Source: Brevibacillus sp. (GTDB lineage: Bacteria; Bacillota; Bacilli; Brevibacillales; Brevibacillaceae). Taken from it: a DNA stretch of 64,000 bases. The translations under genes and the position numbers were made by a program. Below, in pieces: positions 39,656-43,322 of the stretch. Below the pieces are notes generated by a model, which had not been told where the DNA came from, ran no database searches, and was given only the letters and a program-made list of their open reading frames with translations. Within the stretch, counting starts at the first letter, position 1, and every line of letters begins with the position of its first letter. Where the stretch lies: the NCBI GenBank assembly GCA_017656235.1, contig JACDOF010000003.1:62001-126000 (forward strand), written 5' to 3'.

Positions 39656-39958
39656 CTATCGACCGCACAAACGCTCTTTTTTTGCATGATATTGAACGGC
39701 AACGATATACTGATCCAGCCATTGGCTTAACTCGATTACGTCTTCGCTTAAAAAACTTCCCCGTTCCATTACCAATTGTACCAGCTGCTGACGGATGTAC
39801 TCCGTAGTCATTACCAATTGATCACAAATTGCACAACTTTCTCTTCCGAACCTTGATCGCTTCATGCTACTATTTCCTTGAAGGAGATGGTCTGCTCCTT
39901 TTGAGGGTACTCCCGCGGCCTGGAAAATCAAAGGAGTACCCTTATCCGATTTCATCAT
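39656..39958 (-). CDS. Spo0E-like aspartyl-phosphate phosphatase
   Basis: The C-terminal half (IRQQLVQLVMERG to LSEDVIELSQWLDQYIVAV) has the Spo0E helix pair with the SQxLDxxI signature. Spo0E-type proteins dephosphorylate Spo0A~P and delay sporulation. ATG 39958 has the best ribosome site (GGAGGT) and gives 100 residues; ATG 39865 with AAGGAAA gives 69, closer to the usual size. The messenger between the two starts can fold (39905-39941). It lies next to the regulator-peptide genes on the same strand. Confidence 0.75.
   Translation of the reverse strand: MMKSDKGTPLIFQAAGVPSKGADHLLQGNSSMKRSRFGRESCAICDQLVMTTEYIRQQLVQLVMERGSFLSEDVIELSQWLDQYIVAVQYHAKKERLCGR
39905..39941 (-). repeat. Inverted repeat within the 5' part of the Spo0E-like gene
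   Basis: GGGTACTCC (39905-39913) and GGAGTACCC (39933-39941), perfect 9-bp arms. In the messenger it would stand between the two candidate start codons. Confidence 0.6.
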
Positions 39959-40044
39959 GCCGTTACCTCCCTCGCTTTGACAGGTTTAGACATAAAATAC
40001 TATAAGGGAATATTCATAAAAGGATTAATTAAGAAAAATTGGAT

Positions 40045-40076
40045 AAAAAAAGCACCTCTCGTTTTCGAGAGATGCT
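40045..40076 (-). terminator. Terminator after the propeptide gene
   Basis: On the minus strand an 11-bp stem AGCATCTCTCG/CGAGAGGTGCT with a 4-base loop, followed by seven T. Confidence 0.9.
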
Positions 40077-40092
40077 TGTTCATACTTAACGC

Positions 40093-40215
40093 TTAACCGC
40101 CAACGCCGTGGTCGTACGTAATTACTTTTTTGTCCTTAATCATCTCTACTTGTCCATCTGCGATGCTACCAGACAACCCCAAGATTAGAGCCAGTGAAAG
40201 GAAAAATGCTTTCAT
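40093..40215 (-). CDS. Secreted signalling propeptide of 40 residues (Phr/AimP-like)
   Basis: ATG 40215 is preceded by GAAGGAGGT, a near-perfect ribosome site. The product starts MKAFFLSLALILGLSGSIA, a short export signal, continues with a polar stretch (DGQVEMIKDKKVI) and ends TYDHGVGG. The gene overlaps the last 50 nt of the regulator gene in another frame and is followed by a terminator. Size, signal sequence, overlap and small C-terminal peptide match the precursors of RRNPP systems (PapR, NprX, Phr, AimP). The mature peptide, perhaps the last five to seven residues, is inference. Confidence 0.8.
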   Translation of the reverse strand: MKAFFLSLALILGLSGSIADGQVEMIKDKKVITYDHGVGG

Positions 40216-41566
40216 CTCTACTTACCTCCTTCATAATACTTTTGAATTTCTTTTCTTGCTTATCTGTTATATAGGTTCTGTACGCTTCAAACAGTGCCAC
40301 GGCTTGGATAAAGCTATAGCAATCATTCATTTCAGTAGATAAATCCAAACACTTCAATACGTCATCAATTCCGTTCGTATATTCACCTATTTGAAGTCTG
40401 TAAATAGCCAACTCATATCTGAAACGAAAAAGTCGCTCTTTATTGATTGAACCTTGGTAGGTAGAAAAGTTGCTGATTTGATCGGAGAACCGATCTAGTA
40501 CACTATCTATCGAAAACTTATACTTATTGGCTGATTCTATGATCGTTGTTAAACCGGGAAGCAACTCGTTCGGATGATCGGCGAGAAAATCAACGTATTC
40601 CGGAAGAATGGTTGTATTGCCCATGAGAATATCAAGAGTGTACAAGTTAGCCCTCGCCCATAGACGAAACTTTTCTACCTCTTTTATTCCTGTTTCGTCA
40701 AGCAGTTCAAACCATCCAAGTTCTGCGTAACCAAGGATATACTCTCTAGCCTTGTCATAATGTCCTTGTTTTTCTAAAGCTTCAGACTTTAACAAATGCC
40801 CTTGCCCATAATATACCACTAAATGCCTCTCCGTTTGGAGTGGTTCGTTGGTAATATTTCGTCTTTTTTTGCGCAATTCGTGCTGGTAAACCACTTTGGC
40901 CAGTTCCCGCAGCTCGTCCGCATATCGTTCAACATCTTTCCAGCGGTGGAGTGTGAAGCAGACATTGGCCAACTGCAGCAGCGCGTCCAACCGATAGTTC
41001 TCCGGCAGCTTGTGGCGGTAAGGCTCAAACCGAATCACCGCCTTCCAGTTTTCCTCAACGTCCGTTCCCAGTGAGGCGCGAAACAGACGGTACTGGCTGA
41101 TCAGGTACCGGTCGGAATGGTTGTCCTTTTCGTTGTCAATCACCAGGCGGTAGAAAAGCGATGACTCCTTTCGTTTTCCCGCTTCAAACAGCTGTTCTCC
41201 CACTGCATAGAGGATGGACACGTTTTTCGGGTTCTCCATCAGGAGAGACACAACCCGCTCGATCAAGTCTTCGCGGTCCAGCTCCGCACAGCGAATCAGA
41301 AACGGAATCACCCGGGGGCGGGAAACTCTCTCGCGCGTAACACATTCTTCCGGGTACAGCTCGTACAGCCATCCCGGTTCATAACCAAACGCTGCTGCGA
41401 TTGCATCCAGCTGCCTAATGGTGATGGCACGCGGGGGATTGCCGTTGAGGATTTCACTCAGGTTTCCGGGATTGATCCCGGTCATTTCTCCCAGTTTGCT
41501 CAGTGTATATCCTTTCTCTTTCACTTTTTTTTCTATCTCAGATCGAATCGTCGGTTGTATTTCCAT
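40166..41566 (-). CDS. XRE-TPR regulator, RRNPP-like (copy 1)
   Basis: 466 residues. N-terminal XRE helix-turn-helix (EIEKKVKEKGYTLSKLGEM, INPGNLSEILNG), a joining segment with EPGWLYELYPEEC, then helical TPR-type repeats from about 90 to the end (for example LISQYRLFRASLG and YYGQGHLLKSEALEKQGHYDKA). This is the layout of peptide-sensing cytoplasmic regulators of the PlcR/NprR/AimR type. Its 3' end overlaps the propeptide gene at 40093-40215. Residues coded by 40932-41388 are identical at DNA level to copy 2. Targets unknown; no sporulation kinase or extracellular enzyme gene is adjacent. Confidence 0.82.
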   Translation of the reverse strand: MEIQPTIRSEIEKKVKEKGYTLSKLGEMTGINPGNLSEILNGNPPRAITIRQLDAIAAAFGYEPGWLYELYPEECVTRERVSRPRVIPFLIRCAELDREDLIERVVSLLMENPKNVSILYAVGEQLFEAGKRKESSLFYRLVIDNEKDNHSDRYLISQYRLFRASLGTDVEENWKAVIRFEPYRHKLPENYRLDALLQLANVCFTLHRWKDVERYADELRELAKVVYQHELRKKRRNITNEPLQTERHLVVYYGQGHLLKSEALEKQGHYDKAREYILGYAELGWFELLDETGIKEVEKFRLWARANLYTLDILMGNTTILPEYVDFLADHPNELLPGLTTIIESANKYKFSIDSVLDRFSDQISNFSTYQGSINKERLFRFRYELAIYRLQIGEYTNGIDDVLKCLDLSTEMNDCYSFIQAVALFEAYRTYITDKQEKKFKSIMKEVSRDESIFPFTGSNLGVVW

Positions 41567-41917: not shown

Positions 41918-41987
41918 GCAGTGAGGGTCTGTAAAGAATACTCTCCTTGCGGCCAACTTTCAACACCATTTCATACATAATTCCTTT

Positions 41988-43322
41988 TTAGTCCTTAATC
42001 ATTTCTACTCGCCTATCTGTAATGCTACCAGACAACCCGAAGATTAGATGTTCAAACCAGCTAAAATCGACGTAACCATGAATATACTTTCTAGATAAGT
42101 AGAGACAGTGTAACGTTTCGTCAATCCCGTGTTGGAAGCGACCTTTTGTAAATTCATAAACGGCTTTATGGCATCGAAACTGGAAGTGGCGGTCTAAGTT
42201 TACTGCGTCTTGCACGTTTTCAAAGCGGGAAATACTAGTTGCAAATCGATCTATCACATGATCGACATCATATCCAAATTTATTGGCAGCCTCCATTATC
42301 GCAATTAACCCAGGGAGTATCTCGTCAGGATGGCCGGCTAGATATTCCGTATACTCGTCTAAGATGCCGAAATTTCCCGTTAAGATTTCCAGTGTGTAAT
42401 GATTCGCCTTAGCCCAGACTTTAAATTTTTCAACTTCACTCATCCCTGTTTCATCAAGTAGTTCAAACCAGCTTAAATCGGCATATGCTTCAACGTACCG
42501 CTTTGCCTGTTCATATTCCTTTTGCATCTCAAGTGCGGCACCTTTCAAGAGGAACCCTTGCCCATAATATACCACTAAATGCCTCTCCGTTTGGAGCGGT
42601 TCGTCTGTAATATTTCGTCTTTTTTTGCACAACTCGTGCTGGTAAACCATTTTGGCCAGTTCCCGCAGCTCGTCTGCATATCGCTCTACATCTTTCCAGC
42701 GGTGGAGTGTGAAGCAGACATTGGCCAACTGCAGCAGCGCGTCCAACCGATAGTTCTCCGGCAGCTTGTGGCGGTAAGGCTCAAACCGAATCACCGCCTT
42801 CCAGTTTTCCTCAACGTCCGTTCCCAGTGAGGCGCGAAACAGACGGTACTGGCTGATCAGGTACCGGTCGGAATGGTTGTCCTTTTCGTTGTCAATCACC
42901 AGGCGGTAGAAAAGCGATGACTCCTTTCGTTTTCCCGCTTCAAACAGCTGTTCTCCCACTGCATAGAGGATGGACACGTTTTTCGGGTTCTCCATCAGGA
43001 GAGACACAACCCGCTCGATCAAGTCTTCGCGGTCCAGCTCCGCACAGCGAATCAGAAACGGAATCACCCGGGGGCGGGAAACTCTCTCGCGCGTAACACA
43101 TTCTTCCGGGTACAGCTCGTACAGCCATCCCGGTTCATAACCAAAAGCAGCGGCCATCGCGTCCAGATGCCTAAGAGTAATGGGGCGTGGAGGATTGGCG
43201 TTCAGCATCTCGCTTAAGTGTCCAGAGTTTATGCCTGTTAACTGACTCAATTTACTGAGCGTGCAGCCGTTCGCTTTCAGATGTTTCTCTATTTCGGATC
43301 GAATCGTCGGTCCTATCCCCAT
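41988..43322 (-). CDS. XRE-TPR regulator, RRNPP-like (copy 2, chimeric C-terminus)
   Basis: 444 residues, same XRE plus TPR layout as copy 1 (TLSKLSQLTGINSGHLSEML, EPGWLYELYPEEC). The last residues, FGLSGSITDRRVEMIKD, do not match the end of copy 1 but match the middle of the copy 1 propeptide (LGLSGSIADGQVEMIKD). A deletion therefore fused the regulator frame to the peptide frame, removing the usual C-terminal repeat and the export signal. No working peptide gene follows. It may be an orphan receptor answering to the copy 1 peptide, or be decaying. Confidence 0.82.
   Translation of the reverse strand: MGIGPTIRSEIEKHLKANGCTLSKLSQLTGINSGHLSEMLNANPPRPITLRHLDAMAAAFGYEPGWLYELYPEECVTRERVSRPRVIPFLIRCAELDREDLIERVVSLLMENPKNVSILYAVGEQLFEAGKRKESSLFYRLVIDNEKDNHSDRYLISQYRLFRASLGTDVEENWKAVIRFEPYRHKLPENYRLDALLQLANVCFTLHRWKDVERYADELRELAKMVYQHELCKKRRNITDEPLQTERHLVVYYGQGFLLKGAALEMQKEYEQAKRYVEAYADLSWFELLDETGMSEVEKFKVWAKANHYTLEILTGNFGILDEYTEYLAGHPDEILPGLIAIMEAANKFGYDVDHVIDRFATSISRFENVQDAVNLDRHFQFRCHKAVYEFTKGRFQHGIDETLHCLYLSRKYIHGYVDFSWFEHLIFGLSGSITDRRVEMIKD
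42688..43144 (-). repeat. 457-bp tract identical to 40932-41388
   Basis: By reading both copies base by base no difference is seen over 457 bp, while the flanking parts of the two regulator genes differ clearly. Same orientation, offset 1,756 bp. Confidence 0.88.

Follow-up and report, generated by a model that had tools for sequence, protein, structure and literature searches.

The window, a 64,000-nt stretch of a Brevibacillus sp. contig (JACDOF010000003.1, positions 62,001–126,000), carries a receptor gene (aloR), a small propeptide gene overlapping its 3' end (aloP), an intrinsic terminator and a spo0E-like gene, with a second receptor gene (copy 2) lying upstream of aloR in the direction of transcription. 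The features, with the evidence on which they rest, are:

39656–39958, minus strand: spo0E-like gene, 100 aa, predicted target of the pair (PF09388, 37.0 bits, cut-off 23)
39962–40044, minus strand: spo0E promoter region, candidate AloR-responsive region (69/83 identical in a same-genus relative)
39999–40004, minus strand: -10-like TATAGT of spo0E (promoter alignments)
40033–40039, minus strand: ATTTTTC box, candidate activator site at a fixed distance upstream of the -10 (11-locus alignment)
40050–40077, minus strand: intrinsic terminator after aloP, 12-pair stem, 4-nt loop and T tail (hairpin scan, folding, relative)
40093–40215, minus strand: aloP, 40-aa propeptide with hydrophobic N-terminus and predicted mature hexapeptide DHGVGG (open reading frame (ORF) list, conservation in relatives)
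40166–40215, minus strand: overlap of the aloR 3' end and the aloP 5' end, exactly 50 nt (ORF coordinates)
40224–40231, minus strand: aloP ribosome-binding site AAGGAGGT, within aloR and 8 nt upstream of the start codon (sequence inspection)
40166–41566, minus strand: aloR, 466 aa, XRE helix-turn-helix (HTH; residues 11–67) and TPR-like superhelix (ORF list, Pfam, AlphaFold2, AloR13 homology)
40955–41374, minus strand: 420-nt tract 100% identical to 42711–43130 (alignment of the copies)
41971–42048, minus strand: propeptide remnant in copy 2, with 86% identity to 40112–40189 (alignment)
41988–43322, minus strand: AloR paralogue copy 2, 444 aa, C-terminus fused to the propeptide remnant (ORF list, alignments)

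The aloR product combines an HTH with a C-terminal TPR-like domain, as is characteristic of Alo receptors, and the gene had rightly been called XRE-TPR in a preliminary description of this DNA. Two Pfam HTH models exceeded their cut-offs (HTH_3, 34.2 bits against 23, and HTH_26, 32.9 bits against 22), TPR_2 stayed below its threshold (20.5 bits against 27), and the AlphaFold2 model, built from the window receptor and 44 unchanged relatives (mean pLDDT 90.8), shows an all-helical superhelix behind the HTH and has TPR proteins as its structural matches. The sole stretch with pLDDT <50 comprises residues 457–466, which are encoded in the overlap with aloP. Z scores against the model were 16.1 for NprR, 15.1 for RapI and 13.4 for AimR, tied with or under those of unrelated TPR proteins (18.8 for LGN), and since the top Foldseek matches were generic TPR proteins, structure does not single out the RRNPP regulators. 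In NCBIfam, the receptor, the propeptide and the Spo0E-like protein had no match up to E 1, and copy 2 had only one irrelevant weak match. A defence gene was considered and rejected (best PADLOC E-value 0.043).

The small gene is translated in a frame different from that of aloR (MKAFFLSLALILGLSGSIADGQVEMIKDKKVITYDHGVGG) and, with its 40 aa and 50-nt overlap, falls within the range of Alo propeptide genes (32–50 aa, downstream of or overlapping aloR, hydrophobic N-terminus). Its Shine-Dalgarno sequence matches AGGAGGT at 7/7 positions, and its N-terminus has a lysine and then a markedly hydrophobic run (hydropathy 2.7), from which hydropathy alone an export signal is predicted. The translation ends in DHGVGG, a C-terminus like the SHGRGG of AloP13; this hexapeptide was absent from the searched literature, a body of text outside which most subscription papers lie. 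The gene is closed by a hairpin of -18.4 kcal/mol (z -6.6), with 0/200 shuffles equally stable, while terminator-like sites in the whole scan showed no excess (3 versus a mean of 4.2 expected). In all these points (the out-of-frame overlap, the near-perfect ribosome site, the predicted export signal, the C-terminus and the terminator) the preliminary description was borne out.

AloR-AloP pairs have been described in Paenibacillaceae, with Brevibacillus listed among the hosts (Voichek et al. 2020, PMC7425212). According to that paper, AloR13 activates the promoter of a spo0E-like gene in a B. subtilis reporter, and the mature AloP13 peptide SHGRGG lowers this gene, which lies directly downstream, with a decrease from 10 nM and near shut-off at 5 uM. 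The Alo13 locus was found by means of the printed 23-aa pro-peptide, which had a match in 3/394 genomes, one of them identical (L080, 100%); of the published cloning primers, one matched the L080 locus exactly and the other matched it at all but one base, in the start codon. The window receptor is homologous to AloR13 over its full length (45% identity over 459 aa, E 2e-149). In a midpoint-rooted tree of 88 of the 93 receptors (short matches excluded), the window receptor forms a sister pair with copy 2 (100/100), nearest to Brevibacillus sequences, and the AloR13 lineage lies in another clade of the same receptor family. By sequence homology, the window pair is a member of the published AloR-AloP family, and a new RRNPP type is rejected; the preliminary interpretation is right as to kind and wrong as to novelty.

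Several features are shared with Alo13: an XRE-HTH/TPR receptor whose gene shares 50 nt at its 3' end with the propeptide gene (as in L161), a spo0E-like gene that comes next, past a hairpin resembling a terminator (recognized by eye in the L080 locus; the gene lies 214 nt downstream in L161), and a neighbouring receptor that has no working peptide (aloR14 in Alo13, copy 2 here). The two systems differ in species, in the clade of the receptor and in residues 1 and 4 of the hexapeptide (SHGRGG versus DHGVGG), so their specificities probably differ. Not all published AloP resemble SHGRGG, as YIGGA is the end of the AloP-like ORF carried by the ATCC 842 plasmid. An AloR-AloP system on a plasmid of Brevibacillus laterosporus LMG 15441 is named by Bernard et al. 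2023 (PMC10075063). The relative found on pBRLA33 of that strain has a receptor 58% identical to that of the window and a peptide ending in EHGVGG, but it is plasmid-borne and no Spo0E gene is annotated afterwards in the stretch examined. Relatives were found in 35/72,556 plasmid records and 2/50,697 phage records. The general layout and mode of action are also alike in AimR-AimP, NprR-NprX, PlcR-PapR and Rap-Phr (as also described in PMC7425212). None of the PlcR, NprR, Rap and AimR chains among the PDB sequences was matched up to E 1, either by phmmer (6 sequences) or by a profile (9 sequences), and membership in these families proper was rejected on that basis. The literature search returned no crystal-structure paper on Paenibacillus RRNPP.

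Conservation of the propeptide was examined at the 3' ends of receptor genes from 76 genome loci, five viral contigs and the window. The loci came from a contig profile search in which a single-sequence query confirmed no relative and an alignment query yielded these 76 (best 80 of 134 matches); among 101 related ORFs, 93 were counted, three being cut by contig ends and five being duplicates or below 200 bits. Codirectional ATG ORFs of 27–60 codons were sought that had a hydrophobic N-terminus and a Shine-Dalgarno match of 5/7 or better, the C-terminal motif not being required, and 249 ORFs of at least 250 aa from the same sequences served as controls. Such a propeptide ORF was present at 53/93 receptor relatives and at 4/249 controls, and one ending in HGxG at 28/93 and 0/249, respectively. 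HG occurs within the last 8 residues in 52 of the 53 peptides, its His codon being CAT in 29 cases and CAC in 23, and its Gly codon GGA (22), GGT (14), GGC (9) or GGG (7), counts that include L124, which is out of register in the alignment. HG is thus conserved despite synonymous changes, which points to selection on the peptide and not on the DNA. Another set of relatives (99 genomes searched, 30 with a match) has the peptide ends DHGVGG, EHGVGG, GHGVGG, DHGIGG and THGMGG, among others. The remaining 40/93 receptors had no ORF passing the scan; some are misses of the strict filter (L162 carries an aloP) and others look like true orphans. L162 itself (19–1936, an IMG/VR contig classed as viral) has a nearly complete aloR at the contig edge, an aloP ending in THGAGG and a spo0E-like gene. 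Judged by its recurrence across several genera, aloP is not a chance ORF. Conservation in relatives, which the preliminary description had put forward as one check on its own proposal, favours a pair, and the reading as a quorum-sensing pair beside spo0E is strongly supported.

The neighbour of aloP had been called Spo0E-like, an assignment that holds at 37.0 bits, and the gene is codirectional and directly downstream, as in Alo13, beginning 207 nt past the aloR stop. A codirectional Spo0E-like gene lies within 600 nt downstream of 29/53 peptide-bearing receptors and within 400 nt upstream of 13/53, and 11/53 have none nearby; for receptors without a detected peptide the figures are 9/40 downstream and 13/40 upstream (22/40 in total). 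Peptide and spo0E are therefore not strictly linked. Among control ORFs of the same loci, 23/193 have a Spo0E-like gene downstream, an appreciable rate that is inflated in part because these controls sit near the same spo0E genes. The aloR-aloP-spo0E order recurs in Brevibacillus and in other genera. A reversed order, with a codirectional spo0E-like gene just upstream of aloR, was observed in Paenibacillus-type loci (L106, L109–L111, L113–L120, L123 and L124), whose receptors form one clade in the receptor tree. The source genome encodes Spo0A and five Spo0E-like genes.

In a same-genus genome the aloR-aloP-spo0E cassette is syntenic, beside the cobalamin gene cobQ (named from sequence). The peptide of this ortholog ends in GHGAGG, its aloP has a TTG start and a weaker ribosome site, and its spo0E-like ORF is intact. 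Between the terminator and the ribosome site of spo0E, 69/83 positions are identical; the corresponding values are 20/49 for the aloP body, 53/103 for the aloR tail, 15/21 for the last six aloP codons and stop, and 89/139 and 94/130 for two parts of spo0E. The terminator (27/33) and the 45 nt preceding aloR (42/45) are also conserved, so conservation of non-coding DNA is not confined to the spo0E promoter.

Promoter stretches were gathered for those peptide-bearing receptors whose identity to the window receptor was 50% or more (n=21), and 11 of the stretches were used; L087, L092, L096 and L105 were excluded as near-identical, L099, L103 and L125 as lacking the anchor pattern, and L104, L107 and L146 as being of another make. 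Conservation of TATAGT in this set is by construction, as it is the anchor, while the ATTTTTC box lies outside it. A TTTT.TcA block stands at fixed spacing before the -10 in the 11 anchored promoters and was equalled in 0/500 shuffles and 0/500 random shifts, nulls that do not model the kinship of these loci, which are related by descent. No consensus sigma-70 site was found on the minus strand at the spo0E promoter, which fits an activator-dependent promoter. The region 39962–40044, and the ATTTTTC box within it, may thus be regarded as a candidate place of action of AloR; the terms 'operator' and 'binding site' were both absent from the searched passages of PMC7425212.

Copy 2 retains a propeptide remnant whose start region is lost and which ends early, so this receptor looks like an orphan, comparable with aloR14 beside aloR13. 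Compared with the identical 420-nt tract, the two copies resemble each other much less at the HTH end and over the C-terminal half, and 4-fold sites agree at 73/88 (N half) and 24/50 (C half), a contrast above 0.25 being seen in 0/60 random pairs from different loci. Together, the 420-nt identity and this contrast point to a recent event between the copies, either gene conversion or a partial duplication. In other tandem arrays (35 pairs, window included) the synonymous contrast between the halves was weak or absent, and gene conversion is therefore claimed for the window pair alone. The same-genus relative carries two orphan AloR genes (L033, 1688–3037 and 3154–4500, minus strand) whose reading frames continue into a Spo0E-like segment, with alignment scores of 80 and 74 against 45 and 41 for the best of 500 shuffles each. 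Pfam reported no Spo0E-like domain for the one fusion examined, so the segment looks degraded. It could be proposed, although we consider it improbable, that in this genus the aloR-aloP-spo0E cassette acts as a hot spot of recombination and yields orphan regulators, with receptor middles homogenised, DNA-binding and peptide-binding ends differing, and deletions fusing orphans to a propeptide remnant or a Spo0E-like segment. If that were true, the orphans could compete, blind to the peptide, for the same spo0E promoter, or could couple sensing directly to Spo0E.

Other receptor-peptide pairs, with peptides ending in DPG[HY], were observed in the source genome of the window. On contig C4, an XRE-TPR receptor with an overlapping secreted-type peptide ending in LDDPGH (L167, 1180–2635 and 632–1018) is followed by a terminator-like stretch (identified by eye) and a Spo0E-like gene; on contig C1 lies a second pair, with the peptide end VVDPGH (L168, 374–2025). 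The receptors of these two pairs, of BRLA_RS22615 on pBRLA33 (DYDPGY) and of SecTim467_71 (DDPGY) are 39–46% identical, and a Spo0E-like gene follows one of the two genome pairs and that of SecTim467. In this Brevibacillus phage (L083, 4049–7484) the DPG[HY]-type pair is accompanied by a gene annotated as Spo0E, and the phage also has an AloR relative (44% identical) with a short downstream ORF lacking a signal-like start. Window AloR matches three of the DPG[HY] receptors only in the HTH region, over its ~113 N-terminal residues (E 1e-5 to 2e-4), and that of pBRLA33 weakly over the full length (22%, E 0.04); it was accordingly not assigned to this group, a receptor-peptide family distinct from Alo. 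The DPG[HY] pairs may correspond to the 'cluster 8' system mentioned on an LMG 15441 plasmid by Bernard et al. (PMC10075063).

The receptor, the overlapping propeptide gene, the terminator, the conserved promoter region and the spo0E-like gene occur in one conserved order, and the best explanation, which we hold to be likely, is an AloR-AloP quorum-sensing pair in the spo0E-linked arrangement of Alo13. By analogy with that system, AloP would be exported and cut to its C-terminal DHGVGG, which would be re-imported by an oligopeptide permease and bind the TPR part of AloR. Free AloR would activate the spo0E-like promoter at 39962–40044, and the bound peptide would stop this activation; at high cell density there would then be less Spo0E-like phosphatase, Spo0A-P would rise and entry into sporulation would be favoured. 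On the same analogy the adjacent spo0E-like gene is probably switched by the window pair, and the influence on sporulation suggested in the preliminary description gains weight from the tested Alo13-spo0E case and from the conserved spo0E promoter region.

A genuine Alo pair might have its main target elsewhere, controlling itself, the neighbouring copy or distant genes. This is conceivable given that a terminator separates aloP from spo0E, which would have its own promoter, that 11/53 peptide-bearing relatives have no neighbouring Spo0E-like gene, that the aloR leader is conserved (42/45) like the spo0E promoter region, and that AloP13 in P. polymyxa, according to PMC7425212, also lowered other aloP genes and aloR14. 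However, the aloR-aloP-spo0E order is found again in the same-genus relative, elsewhere in Brevibacillus and in other genera, conservation just before spo0E is strong (69/83), and the same layout is directly regulated in Alo13, as reported in that paper; a main target other than the adjacent spo0E is thus judged unlikely. Much less probable is that aloP is translated but serves as no signal, being a small membrane peptide or a relic, with AloR answering the peptide of a paralogous system. Receptors without a detected peptide are indeed common (40/93; also aloR5, aloR14 and aloR18 of the published set, according to PMC7425212), and the aloP body is poorly conserved (20/49), but conservation is concentrated at the C-terminal end, at the position of the mature AloP13 peptide and with synonymous changes, and a membrane peptide would have no need of such an end. 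That the overlap is a chance ORF beside an ordinary XRE regulator can be given hardly any credence: short ORFs with a hydrophobic N-terminus do occur at 4/249 control 3' ends, but position, start, Shine-Dalgarno sequence and C-terminal motif are conserved across several genera, and the HGxG end was seen at none of the 249 controls against 28/93 relatives.

As a likely AloR-AloP pair of the Alo13 arrangement, the locus constitutes an independent spo0E-linked Alo test case outside Paenibacillus, Alo13 being the only one functionally tested in the part of the literature consulted. Both the hexapeptide (DHGVGG) and the promoter target are specific predictions, copy 2 is a natural orphan paralogue that can serve as control, and the conserved stretch before spo0E provides a candidate place of action for an AloR protein.
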